Shown piece after piece: positions 3,264-45,619 of a stretch of DNA of 64,000 bases. Numbering within the stretch: the first letter of the stretch is position 1; every line of letters begins with the position of its first letter. Below the pieces are notes generated by a model. It worked only from the letters and a program-made list of their open reading frames with translations. It did not search any database and was not told the origin of the DNA. Source of the stretch: Armatimonadetes bacterium DC (GTDB taxonomy: Bacteria; Armatimonadota; Fimbriimonadia; Fimbriimonadales; GBS-DC). A program made the translations under genes and the position numbers. Where the stretch lies: contig LDYB01000019.1 of assembly GCA_001442985.1 (NCBI GenBank), positions 248,001-312,000 of the forward strand, given 5' to 3'.

Positions 3264-4613
3264 CTACGAGGCGATAGACCAGAGCGCGAGCATCGCCACG
3301 AGATTATTCACGGCGTGCAAAAGAATGCTCGGCACCAGCGAACGGGTGTACGCGAACAGGAGCGCCAGCACCGTACCAATCGCCGTGAGCGGAATAAGCC
3401 CCGCCAGGAACTGAGGGTGGATGATGGCGAACAGGAATCCGCTGACGAACGCGCTCAGCCAGACGCGCCCCGTGCGCTGCCACAGCGTCTGGAACAGCAC
3501 GCCCCGAAACACGAACTCCTCCACAATCGGCGCCAGCACAACGCCCTGCACGAAAATCACCACCCAGCTCACCCAGCCTTCTGCCCCCCTCGCCGCTTCC
3601 TGAATCGGATGACTCGACTGGAAAACTGTGGGCGCCAGCAATACAACCAGCGCAAGCCCCGCCACTGCGACAGGCACATACGCCAGCCCCCCCGTCAACA
3701 CGGCAAGGGCGTGCTTCCAGAAGCCGTTCGGCACGAACCACCGAACGCCTGTTTCCAGACGCTCCTGCACGGTGTGCAGGTACGACAGACTCAACGCCGA
3801 CGCCATCAGCTGATTCAACAGCGTCGTTTCAGGAAGCGTGATGCCAAACCCCTGCAAAAATCGGTCCAGAAACTCCGCAGGCGCAAGGATGATTGTCAGC
3901 AAAAAAATGACCAGCGCCCATAGTAACGGGTCTAAGGCAAACGGCGAGGCGTTTTCCAGCGGGCGCGCTGGCAAGCGCGGCGGATTTGCCAGCACCCACA
4001 GCAGCACCCCCAGCCCTATCACCACCCCAAAACAGACTGCGATAAGAATCGCAAATAGCACTGCTACTCCCAGCACGCCGCGCCTGCGGAGCGAGTCGCG
4101 TAGTTGCTCGGCTTTCGCCTTCTCCCCTGCTCTTTGCGCCATCACCGCCTCCGCAAGGCGCAGATAAAAAGGCGAAACCGTCGGCGACAGAGCCTCCAGA
4201 ATCCCTGAGATTCGTTCAGGCGCATGTGTGCCCGTCAGCGCCCACGCCCAGAGAGTCGTATACCAGCGTCGCTCGGCAGGGGTGAGCCTCTCTGCAGGCA
4301 GTTGCGCGGCGCGCTGGAGCGTCTCTGCATACCCCTTCTTGCCCAGATACGCCTGCACAATCGCTTTACGCACCTGCTGCTCCCACACGGGGCTTTCCAG
4401 CTCCTCCAGAGCCTGATTCAGGAGAGGATTAGAGGCAGGGTCCGAGCCGAGCGCGAACGCCAGCTTGAGCGAAATCTCCGCCTCTTCTAATGACCTGTTT
4501 ACCGATTTGGGTGGCTGGCTCAGCATCCAGCCAAACAGGGCAAAGTTGAGGGCGATAATGAGGGAAAAAAGAAGTATGAGAAGCCACCATGCGTACCGAC
4601 TTGACTCGTGCAT
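3264..4613 (-). CDS. CPBP-family intramembrane metalloprotease
   Basis: A 449-residue membrane protein with an N-terminal anchor, a soluble alpha-helical region (about residues 40-175, possibly TPR-like) and a cluster of C-terminal helices. The CPBP (CAAX protease/bacteriocin-processing) signature is present: E365-E366-x3-R370 in the segment EEFVFRG, followed by the second motif with H399 in FAIIHPQF. These glutamates and histidines form the intramembrane metal site in the family. The substrate is unknown; bacterial members act in bacteriocin immunity, membrane-protein processing or prenyl-protein maturation. The ATG lies only 10 nt after the encoded CCA of tRNA-Ser and no separate promoter is evident, so it is probably co-transcribed with the tRNA. 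Confidence 0.85.
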   Translation of the reverse strand: MHESSRYAWWLLILLFSLIIALNFALFGWMLSQPPKSVNRSLEEAEISLKLAFALGSDPASNPLLNQALEELESPVWEQQVRKAIVQAYLGKKGYAETLQRAAQLPAERLTPAERRWYTTLWAWALTGTHAPERISGILEALSPTVSPFYLRLAEAVMAQRAGEKAKAEQLRDSLRRRGVLGVAVLFAILIAVCFGVVIGLGVLLWVLANPPRLPARPLENASPFALDPLLWALVIFLLTIILAPAEFLDRFLQGFGITLPETTLLNQLMASALSLSYLHTVQERLETGVRWFVPNGFWKHALAVLTGGLAYVPVAVAGLALVVLLAPTVFQSSHPIQEAARGAEGWVSWVVIFVQGVVLAPIVEEFVFRGVLFQTLWQRTGRVWLSAFVSGFLFAIIHPQFLAGLIPLTAIGTVLALLFAYTRSLVPSILLHAVNNLVAMLALWSIAS

Positions 4614-13329: not shown

Positions 13330-16300
13330 TTATCCGCATCCGAAGGAGGTGCCGCAGTTGAGGCACTGATGGCATGCTCCAGAGCGCACCATAATCATCC
13401 CGCAGTTGGGGCAGGGGGGCGCATCCTGCTGCAGTTTCACGATTTTCGACCAGTCCGTGGTCTTCGCCCCCTGCGGTGTGGCAGAGACCGTTGGCTCCGT
13501 TTTGGCGCCTTCCAGCCCGATGGCTTCGGGCTGCGTGGCGGCGGCGTGCGCAGTCAGCGTTGCCTCGTCCAGCGGTTGAACCTGAGGCGGCTGATGGTTC
13601 AGGAACTTCAGCGCCAGCCAGCGGAAGATATAGTCCACGATCGAGGTCGCCACAGGGATCTGCGGGTTGTTGGTGAAGCCGCTGGGCTGGAAGCGCGTGT
13701 AGGAGAATTTTTCCACCAGCTTCTCCAGGGGCACGCCATACTGGAGCGCCATCGAGATGGCGGTCGCGAAGGCGTCCATCAGACCTGAGATGACCGAGCC
13801 TTCTTTCGCCATCGTCACGAAGATTTCGCCCGGCGTGCCGTCCTCGTACATGCCAACGGTGATATAGCCCTCGTGCCCCGCGATGCTGAACTTGTGGGTG
13901 ATGCTCTTGCGCTCGTCGGGCAGATGGCGTCGGATGGGGCGCTCCACAACCTGCACCGTCGCCTGAGCGGGTTTCTGTTCCTCGCTGGGCTTTTTCGTGG
14001 AGAGCGGCTGGGTGCGCTTGCTGCCATCCCGATAGATGGCAATCGCTTTCAGCCCCAGTTTCCACGCCTGCATGTAGATTTGCTCAATATCTTCAGGTGT
14101 GGCGTCGTTGGGCATGTTGACGGTCTTGGAGATGGCACCCGACAGGAACGGCTGCACCGCCGCCATCATCTTCACATGCGCCATCGGCGGGAGACTCCGC
14201 TTGCCTTTGGCAGGGCGGAAAGCGCAGTCGAACACGGGCAGATGCTCCTCTTTGAGGTGCGGCGCGCCTTCAATCGTGTCATGCTCGTCGATATACTTCG
14301 TGATGGCTTCAATCTGTTCGGGGGTGTATCCCAGCTGCTGGAGCGCCAGCGGCACGGTGGTGTTCACAATCTTCAACAGCCCGCCCCCGACCAGCGTCTT
14401 ATATTTCACCAGCGCAATGTCGGGTTCGATCCCTGTGGTGTCGCAATCCATCATGAAGGCGATGGTGTTGTGGCTGACGAAGCCATTCGCGATATAAGTT
14501 ACATTCGCGGGCACGGAGAGGTCGTAAGTGGGCTGAACGCCTCCATCTTCGTTGGACCCTACAGTATCATAGTAGAATCGGAGAGCGTCTGCAAGGCGTG
14601 CGTCGCCCGTTTCCTGCAGGAGCATTTGCACCCGTCGGCGTGGAATTCCGCCGCGGCGCTTGAGAGACAGCATGATTGGCTGGTAATGAGGACTGTCGGG
14701 TGGCACGAGCTCCTGAATCAGGGCTACGGGCAGATAGATGAGGTCATTCTTTCCGCCCATTTTGCACTTTTCGAGGCTTACGGCGCTGCGCTTGCGCTCC
14801 CCGATGAAACCAATCTCGCGCAGGAACGCCTCGTTGTAGTTCTTGTTACGCAGCCGCAGCACTTCCAGAGTACCCTGCCCCCACTGTGAGTGGTTTATCT
14901 TTGTGGTGGTGGGGTACCCCATCGCCAGAAGCAGGGAGCGAATCTCTTCTGCGAATTTCGCGCTGACGGTACAGAGAGCAGGCACACCCTGGATCACCGT
15001 GCCGTCCGCTTCGAACACGCCGCGCAGAAAAGCGCCGTAGATTTCCGGGTCGTTCGTGTAAAGAATCGCGTCGGGGATGTGCGGTTCGTAGCCCTTGCCC
15101 GAGTGCTCCGAGTCAGGCTTTTGTTTCGCGAAGCCGCAAGCCTCCCACCATACCGCAAGTGGAACCGAGTTCAGGCACACCTCAATATAGCCAGTACGCT
15201 CAGCGGTGTGCGCTTCCAGCCCGAACAGTTCACGGCAGAGCGTGCGAATCCGCTCCACGACATCCCTATCCTCCGCCGTGACGTAGAAGCGCAGTCCTTT
15301 TGCGTGCAGGCTGCCATCGCCCATGTAGTAACCAACCAGCTCAGCAAGCTCGGGAGTTACGGTTCGGGGAACGCGCGTCTGGAAGTCAGCTACCCAGTAT
15401 AGGTCTCCAAGCGGCGGTAGGAGAACTTCCTGAGGCTCCCCAAACAGAGTGTTGAGGCTCAACGGAACAATATCGCCAGGCTGGACAGCATCCAATCGGC
15501 GCCATACACGCTCGCCTGTCTGCGAGTCGATCACCTTAATCTGGTGATTGGGTGTGCCCTGTATTGTATAGCCAGAGCGTGTACGAATAACCCGCGTCGG
15601 TGCCAGCCCATTGATATAGAACTTCGTCGCAGTTTGAATACCATCGTCGGTAGCAACCTGCAGGTTGAGTGATTGCCACTGCGCGCCTTTGGGGTCACCC
15701 AATGTGCGCAGGCGTACCAGCCCGCGCTCGGTAGCAATCAGGGAGTTGCCAACCAAACACCCTGTCGGCGCAAGCACCGTGACCTGCGCATTCCGGTAGC
15801 CGTGCTTCTCGCCGAGTTTGAGCGTTTCGTCCCAGATGGCGCGCGCGGCTGCCATCAACGACGGGGGCACCAGATTCGCCTGAATCTGGTTGAGCGCGTC
15901 GGCGTGCATGCGCATCACTTCCAGCATCGGCTCGCGGTTCAGCTCAAAGCCCGGGAACGGAGCGCCGCAATCCCGCGCAATAATGGCTGACTGCCGATAC
16001 GCTTCGCCGTGCATAATTGCGGTCAGCACTGCGGCATAGGCGCGCCCCTCGTCGCTATCATAGGGCAAGCCGAGCGACATCAGCAACGCGCCGAGATTGG
16101 CGTACCCCAGCCCCAGCGGACGGAAGTTGTGGCTGTTGTCCGCAATCCGTTCGGTGGGGTACGCCGAGTTGTCCACGATAATCTCCTGCGCTGTGATGAG
16201 CGTGCGCACCGCCGCCCGATACGCCTCCACATCGAAGCTGCCATCCGGCAGGCGGAACTTCATCAGGTTCAGGCTCGCGAGGTTGCAGGAGGTATCGTTC

Positions 16301-19300
16301 AGGAACACAAATTCCGAGCAGTTGGCAACAACAAGCCCATTAACGATGTAAGTATGATGAATCGGCTCAGTCAGGTTGTAGGTCAGCTCGTATCCGTCGA
16401 ACTCGCGCTCCACAAGATGCGCATCGGCGCGTACCGCGTAGAACTCATGTTCCTGAATCCAGCGCTCAAGGATTTGTTGCTTGCTGGCAGTCGCAAAGCC
16501 GATATAGTCGTAGAAGCGCCGAATCGAGGGTCCCGTGATGCGCAGGTCGTAGCTGTTGCCATGAGAGAAATAGGTCACCTGCTGACCGTCGCGCTTGCGC
16601 GTGTAGCAGAACTTCGTCTGCTTGGGCGGCTGCGTGTAGATACGGCTCTGGATGCCGAACATCAGCAGCAGCTGCTGCACCTGCTGCAGGAGGGTGAGCG
16701 ATTTACTCCCCAGTCCGATATAGCGGGTGCCCTTTTTCTGGTCGTCGCGGGCGCATCCATCAGCGGTAAACAGCCCACGCAGGTAAGCTGCCACGATTTC
16801 GGCAGGCGCTCGGAAAATCGCTTCCGGCACGCATTTGTCAGCGGCTTTGGCTTGCTTCACGCCCAGCGCTTGCAGGAAACGACTGAACGCAGCTCGCACG
16901 ACGCGCAACTGGGCGGTACCGTTGGCTTGCTGGCTGATGTGCGGATGCAATCCCAGCGACTCCAGCACAGCGCGGTGGCGAGGCAACAGCTGTTCTTGCT
17001 CTTCAGCGCCGCCGTATGTCCAGATTACCATCGGGCTGGAGTGCACAAAGCAGCTGTCGCCCGTGAGATGCCCCAGCATCTCCGCAAAGGGCACAGACCA
17101 CTCCGAGGGCAGGTTTAGCGGAGCGTGGCGCTCGCCCTTCGCACGCAACTGTTTCCAGTCGGCAGGCACAGGCAGTTCCCACGAGGCGTCTACAGGTAGG
17201 CACGGAGCATCCGTCACCAGCACGGTGTCTTCAGGGGTCAGCTCATCGGCACGCACCATGCCCCGATTCAGCGTGAAGAAGCGGTGATTCGGCGTACAGC
17301 GCACCTCAATCCCGTTTGAGAAACGCAATCGCCACACCTCATTCACGCCCGTAATCATCCACTGAGTCGGCTCACTCAGCAAAACACCATCGTGCGGTTC
17401 ACTGGCAGTACGGTTATGTGTGTAAACCCGAATCGACTCGCCCTGACTCACCCGGTGAATCAGCTCCCGAAACGGGATTAGCCCCTTGGAAGTGTAGACG
17501 AGACTGTCTCCCGTAAAACAGGGGTTGCTCGCCTCAATCGGACCGCTGTTCTTGACCGTGTGCCAGCGGTTGGTGGTGTCGTGAAACTGCAAGCCGGGGT
17601 CGCCGCAAATCCATGCCGCTTCGGCAATCTTGCGGAACAGGTCGCGCGCACGGTAGCGCCCCAACACCTCGCCTGTGGTGCGGGCAGTTGTACACCACTC
17701 TTTATCCTCTTCGACCGCCCGCATAAACTCGTCGGTCACGCGCACGCTGTGGTTCGCATTCTGGAAGAAGACCGAATCGTATGCCCCACCGGGCACATTG
17801 AAGCCCGGATCATAGCCTGCCTCAATCAGCGCCCAGGCTTTCTGTTCCTCCTTGGCTTTGCACTCGATGAAGTCCACAATATCGGGGTGGTCAATATTCA
17901 GCACCACCATTTTGGCGGCGCGGCGGGTTTTGCCTCCGCTCTTGATGACCCCTGCAAAGGCGTCAAAACCGCGCATAAACGACACAGGACCTGACGCGCG
18001 CCCGCCACCCGACAGATACTCCTGCGAGCCACGAATACGCGACAGATTAGAGCCAGACCCAGAGCCATACTTGAAAATCATCCCCTCGGTCTTCGCAAGC
18101 TCCAGAATCGACTCCATCGTGTCCTCGACCGAGACGATGAAACAGTTGTGAACCAGCACGCCGTTGGAGAGATATTGCCCGCTCAGAGTCTGGATGTCAT
18201 AGACATCCATCTCACCAACAGGCTCGATGGAGACTATCCGCTGGTATCTCACTTGGGGGCATCGCTTGCCCTTGACGCCAAGGGAACCGAGTAATTTCGC
18301 CTGCTTATGTTCGGAAATGAACCCAATTTGCTCGGCAAATTTTTGCCGTTCAGAGGCAATCGAGATGTCCACCTCCCATAAATCGTAGCGATCGGGGCGT
18401 TTTTCGCGCTTCTGGCGCACTCGTGAGTAAATGCCGAACCTTGTCAACAAAAGCTGGATGTCCTCCACAAGTTTGCGTGAGATCAGCGCTAAAGCAATGT
18501 GTGCGCTGGGGTGGTGGATTGCAGCGTAGCCATCGGCTTGGAACAGGCTCTTCAAATACGCAGCAACCGCCTCGTTTGGAGCTGTCCACACGGGTTTAGG
18601 AACACGCATCTCTGCACCGCGGCGTAGCAGCTCATACTTTTCGACGAAAGGACGCAGCTCCTCGCCATAGAGGCGGATTCGCAGGCAAGGCTCTTTCAGG
18701 GTCTTTGTAGTAACTTCGCTGATTCGGCAGTGGTGATTTGGGAAGACGCGCCTGAGATGCGTCATAACCCACTCGAACTCTTCATCCCCGACTGTCATAA
18801 ACTCAATAGTCAGAGATTGGTACTCTCCCACCAGACCGTCGGCTTGCAGCCAGCCTGCCAGCGCACATTCGGAGACGACCACTTCATCGGCTTCGGGTGT
18901 ATAGGTGCGTGGCAGGTTGGCATACACGCGCATGAGCATCCCAGGTTTGAGCTCATCCACACGGTACCACTCGAGACGGCGTGTTCGGCGTGTGGTGTGG
19001 GCACACACAAGATGGTCGCCTGTTGCTTCAATGCTGAACCCGTCGTTCAGCGTAATCCTGTAAACGGGCTTACGACCATTGTGCTTTACAGCAATCACAG
19101 GTGTCAATCCCTGGCTGTCATACACAGGGAGACCGATGAGCCTTTTTTCCACAATCTCACCGATGGGCATAGGACCGTACAGAGTGTTGACCATTGCGTG
19201 GTAAGGTTGGCATGCGGAACACTGCGGGCGCGGCTCAATCCCGACATTGAACCAGACGGGGCTGTTGAAAGCGGCATACTGGTGTAGCAACAGATATTTC

Positions 19301-19788
19301 AACTCGTCGCGGAAGGCGTCGGCGTCTTCGTCGCTGGCGAAGTAGCGCATCTCGCGTCCCCAGCGCGAAATGGTGTCCACCACGCGCCCAATCACCTGCC
19401 GCACACTGGTCTCCCGCTCAGGCGTGCCCACCTGACCACGGAAATATTTGGAGACCACCACATTCGTTGCCAGCTGCGACCAGAAGCGCGGCACCTCCAC
19501 ATCTTTTTGCTCAAATACCACCTCGCCGCGCTCGCCCGTAATCACCGCCGTGCGCTTCTCCCATTCCACCTGGTCAAACGGGTCCACGCCCGCCTGCGTG
19601 AAGTAGCGTTTGAAGCGCAATCCTTTGCCACGATTAATCAGATCAAACTTCTCGCGGGGCACATAACCGTAGCGTCGTCCCGTGCCGTTCGTTGTCGGCT
19701 TTTGCGACTCCTCTTTGGGGGCAGTCTCTACGACAGCGCCATTCGTTATCTCCACCATGTCCAGCAGACCTTCTTCAGGATTGAACAT
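13330..19788 (-). CDS. nrdJ: B12-dependent class II ribonucleotide reductase with three inteins
   Basis: NrdJ reduces ribonucleotides to deoxyribonucleotides using adenosylcobalamin to make a thiyl radical, with no oxygen requirement. The precursor is 2152 residues; removing three inteins (193-548, 757-1156, 1344-1774) leaves 965, a normal size for this long NrdJ type. The reconstituted extein joints read PQCSA-CFIVSVED, EASNP-CSEFVFLND and LAPTG-TIAFMMDC, all standard RNR sequence. By comparison with class I enzymes, the first joint cysteine is the reductive partner and NPCSE contains the radical cysteine. The C-terminus has a four-cysteine ribbon (CPNC...CLNC) and a terminal CxxxxxC tail that probably re-reduces the active site. 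AGAGGAGG lies 8 nt before the ATG. It follows nrdR by 38 nt. Confidence 0.96.
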   Translation of the reverse strand: MFNPEEGLLDMVEITNGAVVETAPKEESQKPTTNGTGRRYGYVPREKFDLINRGKGLRFKRYFTQAGVDPFDQVEWEKRTAVITGERGEVVFEQKDVEVPRFWSQLATNVVVSKYFRGQVGTPERETSVRQVIGRVVDTISRWGREMRYFASDEDADAFRDELKYLLLHQYAAFNSPVWFNVGIEPRPQCSACQPYHAMVNTLYGPMPIGEIVEKRLIGLPVYDSQGLTPVIAVKHNGRKPVYRITLNDGFSIEATGDHLVCAHTTRRTRRLEWYRVDELKPGMLMRVYANLPRTYTPEADEVVVSECALAGWLQADGLVGEYQSLTIEFMTVGDEEFEWVMTHLRRVFPNHHCRISEVTTKTLKEPCLRIRLYGEELRPFVEKYELLRRGAEMRVPKPVWTAPNEAVAAYLKSLFQADGYAAIHHPSAHIALALISRKLVEDIQLLLTRFGIYSRVRQKREKRPDRYDLWEVDISIASERQKFAEQIGFISEHKQAKLLGSLGVKGKRCPQVRYQRIVSIEPVGEMDVYDIQTLSGQYLSNGVLVHNCFIVSVEDTMESILELAKTEGMIFKYGSGSGSNLSRIRGSQEYLSGGGRASGPVSFMRGFDAFAGVIKSGGKTRRAAKMVVLNIDHPDIVDFIECKAKEEQKAWALIEAGYDPGFNVPGGAYDSVFFQNANHSVRVTDEFMRAVEEDKEWCTTARTTGEVLGRYRARDLFRKIAEAAWICGDPGLQFHDTTNRWHTVKNSGPIEASNPCFTGDSLVYTSKGLIPFRELIHRVSQGESIRVYTHNRTASEPHDGVLLSEPTQWMITGVNEVWRLRFSNGIEVRCTPNHRFFTLNRGMVRADELTPEDTVLVTDAPCLPVDASWELPVPADWKQLRAKGERHAPLNLPSEWSVPFAEMLGHLTGDSCFVHSSPMVIWTYGGAEEQEQLLPRHRAVLESLGLHPHISQQANGTAQLRVVRAAFSRFLQALGVKQAKAADKCVPEAIFRAPAEIVAAYLRGLFTADGCARDDQKKGTRYIGLGSKSLTLLQQVQQLLLMFGIQSRIYTQPPKQTKFCYTRKRDGQQVTYFSHGNSYDLRITGPSIRRFYDYIGFATASKQQILERWIQEHEFYAVRADAHLVEREFDGYELTYNLTEPIHHTYIVNGLVVANCSEFVFLNDTSCNLASLNLMKFRLPDGSFDVEAYRAAVRTLITAQEIIVDNSAYPTERIADNSHNFRPLGLGYANLGALLMSLGLPYDSDEGRAYAAVLTAIMHGEAYRQSAIIARDCGAPFPGFELNREPMLEVMRMHADALNQIQANLVPPSLMAAARAIWDETLKLGEKHGYRNAQVTVLAPTGCLVGNSLIATERGLVRLRTLGDPKGAQWQSLNLQVATDDGIQTATKFYINGLAPTRVIRTRSGYTIQGTPNHQIKVIDSQTGERVWRRLDAVQPGDIVPLSLNTLFGEPQEVLLPPLGDLYWVADFQTRVPRTVTPELAELVGYYMGDGSLHAKGLRFYVTAEDRDVVERIRTLCRELFGLEAHTAERTGYIEVCLNSVPLAVWWEACGFAKQKPDSEHSGKGYEPHIPDAILYTNDPEIYGAFLRGVFEADGTVIQGVPALCTVSAKFAEEIRSLLLAMGYPTTTKINHSQWGQGTLEVLRLRNKNYNEAFLREIGFIGERKRSAVSLEKCKMGGKNDLIYLPVALIQELVPPDSPHYQPIMLSLKRRGGIPRRRVQMLLQETGDARLADALRFYYDTVGSNEDGGVQPTYDLSVPANVTYIANGFVSHNTIAFMMDCDTTGIEPDIALVKYKTLVGGGLLKIVNTTVPLALQQLGYTPEQIEAITKYIDEHDTIEGAPHLKEEHLPVFDCAFRPAKGKRSLPPMAHVKMMAAVQPFLSGAISKTVNMPNDATPEDIEQIYMQAWKLGLKAIAIYRDGSKRTQPLSTKKPSEEQKPAQATVQVVERPIRRHLPDERKSITHKFSIAGHEGYITVGMYEDGTPGEIFVTMAKEGSVISGLMDAFATAISMALQYGVPLEKLVEKFSYTRFQPSGFTNNPQIPVATSIVDYIFRWLALKFLNHQPPQVQPLDEATLTAHAAATQPEAIGLEGAKTEPTVSATPQGAKTTDWSKIVKLQQDAPPCPNCGMIMVRSGACHQCLNCGTSFGCG
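14467..15759 (-). other. Intein 3 of NrdJ (431 aa, LAGLIDADG type)
   Basis: Precursor residues 1344-1774. It starts with C1344, has block B TPNH (1412-1415) and ends VSHN1774 before T1775. LAGLIDADG-like motifs are LVGYYMGDGS (1484-1493) and AFLRGVFEADG (1586-1596). It interrupts the PTGT loop, part of the substrate phosphate-binding region in the RNR family. Confidence 0.93.
16321..17520 (-). other. Intein 2 of NrdJ (400 aa, LAGLIDADG type)
   Basis: Precursor residues 757-1156. It starts with C757, has block B TPNH (832-835) and ends LVVAN1156 before C1157. The penultimate residue is Ala instead of the usual His. LAGLIDADG-like motifs are EMLGHLTGDS (903-912) and AYLRGLFTADG (1001-1011). 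The site is immediately before the radical cysteine of NPCSE. Confidence 0.92.
18145..19212 (-). other. Intein 1 of NrdJ (356 aa, LAGLIDADG type)
   Basis: Precursor residues 193-548. It begins with C193 (block A), has a block B TGDH at 256-259, and ends VLVHN548 followed by C549, so all four splicing residues are canonical. Two LAGLIDADG-like helices, ALAGWLQADG (309-318) and YLKSLFQADG (411-420), mark a homing endonuclease domain. The insertion is directly before the cysteine equivalent to the reductive C225 of E. coli NrdA (inferred from alignment by eye). Confidence 0.93.
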
Positions 19789-19826: not shown

Positions 19827-20306
19827 TTATTGGCGCGATGCCGACGCGCGTTTCTGCATGCGGGTCAGCATCTGCACCAGACGGTTGAATTGCTGGGGAT
19901 CGTTAAACTCCTCATAGACCGATGCGAAGCGGACATACGCCACGGGGTCAATCGCGAGGAGTTTCTCCATCACCATGCGTCCGATCTCGGTGCTACTGAT
20001 CTCGGACTCCATGCGGTTCTGGATTTCATGCTCAATTTCGTCAACGGCTTGCTCCAGCCGTTCCATACTGACGGGGCGTTTCCTGCAGGCGATTACCATG
20101 CCTCGCAGCACTTTTTCCCGATCAAACGGCTCACGGCGCCCATCTTTTTTGACGACCATCAGTGGACGCTCTTCGTAGCGCTCAAAAGTGGTGTAGCGTC
20201 GCCCGCACGCGAGGCACTCCCGACGGCGGCGTATTACCCGACCCTCCTGCGAAGGGCGCGAGTCCACCACATGGTCCTCATCCTTGCCACAGTAAGGGCA
20301 TCGCAT
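19827..20306 (-). CDS. nrdR: Transcriptional repressor NrdR
   Basis: NrdR represses ribonucleotide reductase genes when dATP is high, by binding paired 16-bp NrdR boxes. The 159-residue protein has the N-terminal zinc ribbon C3-x2-C6 and C31-x2-C34 and the following ATP-cone domain (from about residue 48, VVKKDGRREPFDREKVLRGM). The C-terminal tail is slightly longer and more basic than in E. coli. It is the first gene of an operon with nrdJ, 38 nt apart, and two box-like palindromes lie in its promoter (20325-20371), so it probably controls its own transcription and that of nrdJ. Confidence 0.96.
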   Translation of the reverse strand: MRCPYCGKDEDHVVDSRPSQEGRVIRRRRECLACGRRYTTFERYEERPLMVVKKDGRREPFDREKVLRGMVIACRKRPVSMERLEQAVDEIEHEIQNRMESEISSTEIGRMVMEKLLAIDPVAYVRFASVYEEFNDPQQFNRLVQMLTRMQKRASASRQ

Positions 20307-20324
20307 GGTATCACCTTAATTAAT

Positions 20325-20371
20325 TCCCAGATGTTCGGGGATTGAGCGCACAAATCCCCTACATCTTGGGG
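20325..20371. promoter_or_regulatory. Tandem NrdR-box-like operators
   Basis: Two 16-nt imperfect palindromes, TCCCAGATGTTCGGGG (20325-20340) and CCCCTACATCTTGGGG (20356-20371), lie with centres 31 bp apart, about three helical turns. That is the spacing known for NrdR box pairs. They lie between the nrdR -10 box and its start codon. The flanks are G/C-rich rather than the A/T-rich enterobacterial consensus. Confidence 0.7.
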
Positions 20372-20379
20372 TTGTCTAT

Positions 20380-20409
20380 ATTATGACATGCCCCTGCCCC
20401 TTTTGTCAA
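20380..20409 (-). promoter_or_regulatory. Promoter of nrdR-nrdJ
   Basis: Minus strand TTGACA (20404-20409), 18-bp spacer, CATAAT (20380-20385). The start point would fall next to the promoter-proximal NrdR box, so bound repressor would block initiation. Confidence 0.75.
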
Positions 20410-20467
20410 GGGGGGAAGGGCAAAAAGAGGCAAATTTAACATTCTATGCCCTTCCCCGAGCGACGGG

Positions 20468-20479: not shown

Positions 20480-21757
20480 ATGCTGGACTACCGTCGTTTG
20501 CGCAACGAGCCTGAGTTCGTTAAGGAGTCGCTGGCAAAACGGGGCTATGACCCCTCTATGGTGGATGAGTGGCTCGCGGTGGACACGCGCTGGCGCGAGC
20601 TGACCACGCAGGTGGAACAGCTCACTGCCGAGCAGAACCGCGTCTCTAAAGAGATTCCCCAGCGCAAAAAAGCGGGCGAAGATGTAGAGCCGCTTCTCGC
20701 TCAGATGCGGGCGCTCAGCGACCAGATCAAACAGCTCGAAGCCCAGAAGCGCGAGCTGGAAGCCCAGCGCGAACAGATGCTGCTGATGTTCCCCAACATC
20801 CCGCACGCCAGCACGCCAACAGGCACAGACGCCAGCCAGAATGTGGAAGTCCGTCGCGGTGGGCAACCGCACGCCTTTTCGTTTGAACCCAAGCCCCACT
20901 GGGAGATTGCCGAAAATCTGGGGCTGATTGACTTCGAGCGCGCCGCCAAAATCAGCGGCAGTGGGTTTATGGTCTACACGGGCTTGGGCGCACGGCTGGA
21001 GCGCGCGCTCATCAACTTTATGCTGGATCTGCATGTGCGTGAACACGGTTATACTGAAATCTTTCCCCCGTTTCTGGTGCGCCCTGAAGTGATGGTGGGT
21101 ACAGGGCAGCTGCCCAAATTCGAAGAGGAGATGTATCGTTGCGCTGACGACCCGCTGTATCTCATCCCGACCGCCGAAGTGCCCGTGACGAACTTGTATC
21201 GGGAGGAGATTTTGAATGCGTCCGAGTTGCCGTTGAATCTGGTGGCATACTCGCCCTGTTTTCGGCGCGAGGCGGGCGCGGCAGGCAGGCTCACGCGGGG
21301 GCTACTGCGCGTGCATCAGTTCAACAAAGTGGAGCTGGTGAAGCTCACCTTGCCCGAAACTTCCTACGAAGAGCATGAGCGCCTGCTTCGTGATGCGGAG
21401 ACGGTACTCCAACGGCTGGAACTGCCCTATCGGATTATGCTCCTCTGCACAGGCGATCTGGGCTTCGCCGCGGCGAAGTGCTACGACTTAGAGGTGTGGT
21501 CGCCGGGCGTTCAGCAGTGGCTGGAGGTCTCTTCATGTAGCAACTTTGAGGACTTTCAGGCGCGGCGGGCGAACATCCGCTTCCGTCGGGAGCCGACCGC
21601 GCGCCCGGAGTTTGTGCATACGCTCAATGCTTCAGGCGTCGCCACCCCGCGCCTGATGGCGGCGATTCTGGAAAACTATCAGCAGGAAGACGGCTCGGTG
21701 GTCATCCCCCACGCCCTGCGTCCCTACATGGACGGGTTAGAGGTGATCCGTCCCTGA
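20480..21757 (+). CDS. serS: Seryl-tRNA synthetase
   Basis: Class II aminoacyl-tRNA synthetase that charges tRNA-Ser, including the one encoded at 4.6 kb. The 425-residue protein starts MLDYRRLRNEPEFVKESLAKRG, the typical N-terminal lead into the long antiparallel coiled-coil arm (about residues 30-105) that grips the long variable arm of tRNA-Ser. The catalytic core shows motif 2 (CFRREAGAAGRLTRGLLRVHQFNKVE) and motif 3 (ALNASG-type: HTLNASGVATPRLMAAILEN). Its end overlaps the convergent HxlR gene by 21 nt. Confidence 0.96.
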   Translation: MLDYRRLRNEPEFVKESLAKRGYDPSMVDEWLAVDTRWRELTTQVEQLTAEQNRVSKEIPQRKKAGEDVEPLLAQMRALSDQIKQLEAQKRELEAQREQMLLMFPNIPHASTPTGTDASQNVEVRRGGQPHAFSFEPKPHWEIAENLGLIDFERAAKISGSGFMVYTGLGARLERALINFMLDLHVREHGYTEIFPPFLVRPEVMVGTGQLPKFEEEMYRCADDPLYLIPTAEVPVTNLYREEILNASELPLNLVAYSPCFRREAGAAGRLTRGLLRVHQFNKVELVKLTLPETSYEEHERLLRDAETVLQRLELPYRIMLLCTGDLGFAAAKCYDLEVWSPGVQQWLEVSSCSNFEDFQARRANIRFRREPTARPEFVHTLNASGVATPRLMAAILENYQQEDGSVVIPHALRPYMDGLEVIRP

Positions 21758-44199: not shown

Positions 44200-45619
44200 A
44201 CCTAAAGTGCAGGAGTTCCCCTTGTTTGAGGGGCAGCAAACTTACGAGCGCATCACCGACCAGATTGCGCGGATTCCTGAAAATCCGCATCCGCCTGCCT
44301 GGACGGTGATGTTCGGCATCGGCGCCGTGGGCACCTTGATGCTCATTACCTCGCTGGTGTGGCTGCTCATCGTGGGGCTGGGCATCTGGGGCATCAACCA
44401 GCCCGTCGCCTGGGGATTCGCGATTATCAACTTCGTCTGGTGGATTGGTATCGGACACGCAGGCACGCTCATCTCGGCGATTCTGTTGCTGTTGCGCCAG
44501 GCGTGGCGTATGTCCATCAACCGCTTCGCCGAGGCGATGACGATTTTCGCCGTGATGTGCGCCGGCTTATTCCCCCTGTTCCACACAGGGCGTCCCTGGG
44601 TGGCGTACTGGCTCTTCCCGCTGCCCAACTGGCTGGCGATGTGGCCCCAGTTCCGCAGCCCGCTGGAGTGGGATGTGTTCGCCGTCTCCACCTACTTCAC
44701 GGTCTCGGTGCTGTTCTGGTACATGGGGCTTATCCCTGACCTTGCCACGATGCGCGACCGCGCCAAAAGCACGCTGGCGAAGGTGATTCACGGCATCCTC
44801 TCCTGGGGCTGGCGCGGTTCGGCGGTTCACTGGCTCCGCTACGAACAGGCTTACCTCCTGCTGGCAGGACTCTCCACGCCACTGGTGCTCTCGGTTCACT
44901 CGATCGTGTCGTTAGACTTTGCCATCTCCATCGTGCCCGGCTGGCATGTAACTATCTTCCCGCCCTATTTCGTGGCAGGCGCCATCTTCTCCGGCTTCGC
45001 GATGGTGCTGACCCTTGTCATTCCGTTCCGCATTCTCTATCCGGGCTTGCGTGAATACATCACGATGAACCACATTGACTGGATGGCGAAGGTCATGCTT
45101 GCCACGGGCTGGATCGTCTTCTACGGCTATCTCAGCGAAATGTTCTTCGGCTGGTACAGTGCGAACCAGTTTGAACAGTTCCTCGTGGTGAACCGCTTCT
45201 TCGGACCCTACTGGCTGGCATACTGGGCGCTGATTTTCTGCAACGGCGTCGTGCCCCAGCTGCTCTGGATACCTAAAATTCGCCATAACTTGCTCCTGCT
45301 GTTCATCATCTCGATTATTGTGAACATCGGGATGTGGTTCGAGCGGTTCGTGATTGTGGTCATCAGCCTGCATCGCGACTTCCTGACCTCGGCGTGGGGT
45401 CAATACGCACCTACTATTTGGGACTGGAGCCTCTATCTGGGCACGATCGGTTTCTTCATCATGATGATGTTCCTGTTCGCGCGGTTCGTGCCGATGCTGG
45501 CGATTGCAGAGCTGAAAGATATCTGGCATCGCCTCTACCACGGGCACGGCGGGCATAACGGGCACGCAGGCAAGCACGCCCCCGCGCCTGCCCCAACGGG
45601 CAAAGGAGGTGAGTCCTGA
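44183..45619 (+). CDS. actC: ACIII subunit ActC, NrfD-like quinol-binding membrane protein
   Basis: A 478-residue integral membrane protein of the NrfD/PsrC family with about ten helices. In ACIII structures ActC holds the quinol site and possibly proton channels, next to the Fe-S domain of ActB. Conserved segments are WWIGIGHAGTLISAILLLLRQAWR near residue 90 and SVHSIVSLDFAISIVPGWHVTIFPPYFVAGAI near 235 (quoted in parts: VHSIVSLDFA, GWHVTIFPPYF). The C-terminal tail is histidine- and glycine-rich. The actD start overlaps its stop by one base. Confidence 0.95.
   Translation: MQEAIKPKVQEFPLFEGQQTYERITDQIARIPENPHPPAWTVMFGIGAVGTLMLITSLVWLLIVGLGIWGINQPVAWGFAIINFVWWIGIGHAGTLISAILLLLRQAWRMSINRFAEAMTIFAVMCAGLFPLFHTGRPWVAYWLFPLPNWLAMWPQFRSPLEWDVFAVSTYFTVSVLFWYMGLIPDLATMRDRAKSTLAKVIHGILSWGWRGSAVHWLRYEQAYLLLAGLSTPLVLSVHSIVSLDFAISIVPGWHVTIFPPYFVAGAIFSGFAMVLTLVIPFRILYPGLREYITMNHIDWMAKVMLATGWIVFYGYLSEMFFGWYSANQFEQFLVVNRFFGPYWLAYWALIFCNGVVPQLLWIPKIRHNLLLLFIISIIVNIGMWFERFVIVVISLHRDFLTSAWGQYAPTIWDWSLYLGTIGFFIMMMFLFARFVPMLAIAELKDIWHRLYHGHGGHNGHAGKHAPAPAPTGKGGES

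Follow-up and report, generated by a model that had tools for sequence, protein, structure and literature searches.

Two boxes in the leader of the nrdR-nrdJ transcript very probably form one NrdR operator through which the operon, nrdR included, would be autoregulated; we put the probability of this reading at about 0.88. The boxes were found in the window, the 64-kb stretch of DNA analyzed here, which belongs to a 2.85-Mb genome in 26 contigs. Judged by NrdR, its nearest named relatives are Fimbriimonadales of the phylum Armatimonadota (identity, 81 to 86%). By comparison, the control of ribonucleotide reductase (RNR) genes by NrdR, a repressor of DNA precursor synthesis, would thereby extend to the Fimbriimonadales.

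The nrdR-nrdJ locus and its promoter

The coordinates of the features discussed are collected in Table 1. The product of nrdR, with its zinc ribbon and ATP-cone, scored 189.5 bits against TIGR00244 in a profile search, over the cut-off of 124.65. It also matched PF22811 and PF03477 and, among PDB structures, the NrdR entries 9fxk and 7p37. Sequence and alignment placed D15, R17, and R26 to R29 (RRRR) at the positions that they occupy in a solved NrdR structure; R37 is present as well. The gap between nrdR and nrdJ is 38 bp, and the two genes likely constitute a single operon. The nrdJ frame is broken by three intein regions with LAGLIDADG homing endonuclease domains.

Divergent serS and nrdR are separated by 173 bp, in which one promoter-like site, TTGACA-18-CATAAT, was found against an expectation of 0.1. 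It is TG-extended and matches at 11 of 12 bases. We infer a start site for nrdR-nrdJ near 20373. Both boxes lie directly 3' of this promoter and before nrdR-nrdJ, that is, at the promoter of an RNR operon.

Table 1. Positions of genes and control elements (window coordinates unless L064 is given)
Feature	Position	Strand	Remarks
nrdJ	13330..19788	(-)	B12-dependent class II ribonucleotide reductase; open reading frame and profile search
nrdR	19827..20306	(-)	159 aa; open reading frame; zinc ribbon and ATP-cone
NrdR box 2 (putative)	20324..20339	(-)	CCCGAACATCTGGGAA; core GAACATCTGG; 32 bp between its centre and that of box 1
NrdR box 1 (putative; start-site box)	20356..20371	(-)	CCCCAAGATGTAGGGG; about +2 to +17
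Extended -10, TGT-CATAAT	20380..20388	(-)	Hexamer CATAAT 20385-20380; 18-bp spacer
-35 hexamer TTGACA	20404..20409	(-)
11-bp perfect inverted repeat GGGGAAGGGCA / TGCCCTTCCCC	20412-20422, 20447-20457	.	Flanks GGCAAATTTAACATTC
RNR-linked element GGCAAATTTAACATTC	20429..20444	(+)	Other genome copy precedes nrdBA
serS	20480..21757	(+)	Neighbor, divergent from nrdR
nrdB-nrdA	L064 4230-6920 (C12)		Class I, NrdE-prime type

Sequence and spacing of the two boxes

The preliminary description had reported a pair of palindromes behind the TTGACA-18-CATAAT promoter, with centers 31 bp apart. The promoter stands, and so does box 1, which pairs at six of its eight dyad positions and matches the published NrdR core at 6/6. 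Box 2 is hardly palindromic, with 4/8 dyad pairs at 20340-20325 (center distance, 31 bp) and 3/8 at 20339-20324 (32 bp). Only the latter register gives a core match, at 5/6, the first core base being G instead of C. The published core thus moves box 2 by one base, so that the centers lie 32 bp apart and the spacer measures 16 bp (31 and 15 bp in the register proposed earlier). The three-turn spacing that had been claimed holds at either distance, and the spacer is one of those that correspond to whole turns (14 to 17 or 24 to 27 bp). A 16-bp spacer is within the common, tight-binding range (PMC12051234).

The weakness of box 2 counts against the operator reading. Its G stands at what is probably a binding-sensitive position, where an inversion cut binding strongly in Streptomyces coelicolor (PMC9110341). 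For genome scans, the core has been written as C.[AT].A[AT].[AT].G (PMC12051234). This expression misses the window pair because the core of box 2 begins with G, and it does pick out an unrelated site at 45272 of the window. In Escherichia coli nrdAB, a pair with a non-canonical second box is functional (PMC12176259). Pairs that are typical of the family are overlooked by the published expression.

We defined a strict core pair as one 6/6 match plus another of at least 5/6, with centers 30 to 33 bp apart. Such a pair occurred once in the 64-kb window, in the nrdR-nrdJ leader, and in 0.1% of 5,000 dinucleotide-preserving shuffles. A looser pattern, which allowed C or G as the first base of box 2 and center distances of 30 to 34 bp, gave three matches in the 2.85-Mb genome, as opposed to two for the reversed control. 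By count, the looser pair is thus at background genome-wide, and the argument is carried by location and conservation. The third match, at C7:54047, falls in a stretch of coding frames that shows no evident connection to RNR, and it was not considered further.

Conservation of the pair in the order

The sample of the order comprised 61 genomes; nrdR was present in 54, and their upstream regions were extracted. A strict pair was located at most 140 bp upstream of nrdR in 26 of the 54 relatives, compared with 2 of 475 background tiles. The preliminary description had made its reading depend on the presence of the pair in front of nrdR in relatives, and there it was found. Its proposal of NrdR boxes and autoregulation ahead of nrdR-nrdJ is likewise supported by comparison, through the TIGR00244 assignment and the recurrence of the pair. 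The suggestion of a lineage-specific box fared worse. The core CnAnATnTnG is the general, canonical one, and only the CC/GG flanks are lineage-flavored, varying from genome to genome.

Measured from the promoter, the start-site box of every one of the 13 loci in the window's family (f1) begins 12 to 15 bp beyond the first base of the -10 hexamer, and in four sister families (f2 to f5) the loci with good scores have it at the same distance. Spacing, too, is much alike, mostly 31 to 32 bp in the sister families. What differs is the place of the partner box. In f2 to f5, it lies 31 to 32 bp upstream of the start-site box, inside the -35/-10 spacer, with mean scores of 9.5 to 10.8. In f1, that upstream place scores 5.9, whereas a partner with a mean score of 8.7 lies 30 to 32 bp downstream, near the ribosome-binding site. 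The downstream partner was present at 12 of the 13 f1 loci, the exception being G003, which had no convincing partner box. Several f3 genomes had no pair ahead of nrdR. To judge from these placements, the side of the partner box switches within the order, being upstream in the four sister families and downstream in f1. Given this switch, the promoter spacer should be occluded in the sister families, and initiation or escape should be blocked in the family of the window.

Comparison with known NrdR operators

The nrdRJ operator of S. coelicolor (PMC9110341; PDB 7p37, 7p3f, and 7p3q) also precedes nrdR and then class II nrdJ. Although from a different phylum, it is like the window in having two boxes about three turns apart and in the D15, R17, and RRRR contact residues. 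The S. coelicolor protein binds DNA in tetrameric form, carrying both dATP and ATP, and kinks it at each box; D15 and R17 contact the bases, and RRRR contacts the backbone (PMC9110341).

The closest architectural precedent of the window pair is E. coli nrdAB, where the true pair lies downstream of the promoter and includes one non-canonical box. The downstream boxes 1 and 2 are bound with a KD of 113 nM, as opposed to >6000 nM for boxes 0 and 1 (PMC12176259). The E. coli spacer is 15 bp rather than 16 bp. Moreover, nrdAB is a class I operon, whereas the window site belongs to nrdR-nrdJ, whose promoter spacer contains no clear box.

Published work on NrdR of S. coelicolor, E. coli, Listeria, and Streptococcus suggests how binding, the nucleotide switch, and repression may proceed at this locus. 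High dATP would bring NrdR onto the site as a tetramer covering the stretch from about +2 to +49 relative to the nrdR-nrdJ start site. Since the operator spans this region, the bound tetramer would obstruct RNA polymerase during initiation and escape. Transcription of nrdR-nrdJ would then stop, and nrdJ and nrdR itself would both be shut off.

Alternative readings of the leader

The strongest alternative, which we nevertheless consider unlikely, accepts box 1 as an NrdR box and takes box 2 to be mainly the 3' strand of a stem-loop in the 5' untranslated region (UTR), with box 1 as the 5' strand. A leader hairpin just before the ribosome-binding site might protect the mRNA or tune translation. 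Because the f1 pair is transcribed, the two boxes can pair as RNA, and in all 12 f1 leaders with a downstream partner box 1 was predicted to be able to pair with the box 2 region. The leader in the window has a predicted energy of -24.3 kcal/mol (z, -2.2). The downstream box of f1 retains chiefly its right half, ATnTGG, in most of the family, and this retention could also reflect a hairpin strand, which counts against the operator reading. In a permutation test, the stem arms paired better within than between genomes, with suggestive P values short of the 0.05 level (inner stem, 0.062; outer stem, 0.060).

However, two boxes that are nearly palindromic are complementary to each other by their nature. 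In the alignment, the window and the g5 genomes do not share the register of the inner stem, and the AT of the NrdR half-site, which is unpaired in the stem, is kept in 11 of the 12 leaders. Searches of the nrdR intergenic region and the nrdBA region against Rfam gave nothing up to E = 1. A leader hairpin is possible either as a rival or as a companion of the operator.

It is improbable that the palindromes are the target of another regulator or part of the serS promoter. The divergent region is short and does hold a second RNR-linked element, but the core, the spacing, the gene neighbor, and the recurrence in relatives all fit NrdR, and both boxes are downstream of the nrdR promoter, with at least some 110 bp between them and serS. 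Least probable of all are chance palindromes in a G/C-rich leader: box 2 is poor and CCCC-N8-GGGG is fairly common (four in the window; 4.3% of shuffles of the intergenic region), but the strict pair, rare in shuffles and unique in the window, recurs before nrdR in relatives, which largely refutes this reading.

Boxes upstream of the class I nrdBA operon

Besides nrdR-nrdJ, the genome of the window has a class I nrdBA operon, which among 291 genomes of the phylum occurred only in two sister genera; class III nrdD is absent from the genome. The preliminary description had proposed a search for the same pair before other nucleotide-metabolism genes. One such pair exists, at the only other RNR operon: a looser match at C12:13024-13064 (L064 4025-4065), composed of CCCC-flanked NrdR-like boxes 165 to 205 bp upstream of nrdB. 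The inner box, CCAGATTTnG, was found in 11/11 genomes with full upstream sequence, but the outer box is unconserved in relatives.

Within the nrdBA leader, box-like CTAnAGGTTG and CAACAnnTGG have their centers 52 bp apart (about five turns), a distance that is constant in most relatives. No NrdR pair with three- or four-turn spacing was conserved among the nrdBA leaders of the relatives. The leader boxes (L064 about 4157-4218) have a central AG in many relatives, and an inverted repeat, CCACAAC...GTTGTGG, overlaps the first of them.

A second element linked to both RNR operons

The 16-bp sequence GGCAAATTTAACATTY was found twice in the 2.85-Mb genome with up to one mismatch, as opposed to zero matches for the control. 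One copy precedes each RNR operon, at 20429-20444 of the window and at C12:13066-13081 (L064 4067-4082). The copies have opposite orientations, and their centers lie at about -61.5 (nrdR) and -62 (nrdBA) from the inferred starts. The element is also present ahead of nrdBA in the sister genus, and all four family genomes of at least 94% completeness that lack this nrdB lack the element as well.

We tentatively propose, rating it somewhat below even odds, that both RNR operons carry NrdR boxes or box-like sites together with GGCAAATTTAACATTY as a second, RNR-specific control element for another regulator, which would couple the B12-dependent and B12-independent enzymes. The element would go with class I nrdBA in the two sister genera and also stand before nrdR-nrdJ in the genus of the window, and the NrdR partner box of f1 would lie in the 5' UTR, not in the promoter spacer. 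An element common to both operons offers a specific lead toward an additional RNR regulator. The GGCAAATTTAACATT element may resemble Rex, ArcA, MntR, or DnaA sites. A third genome match to GGCAAATTTAACATTY appears at two mismatches, and G007 has an extra single-mismatch match, apparently within coding sequence.
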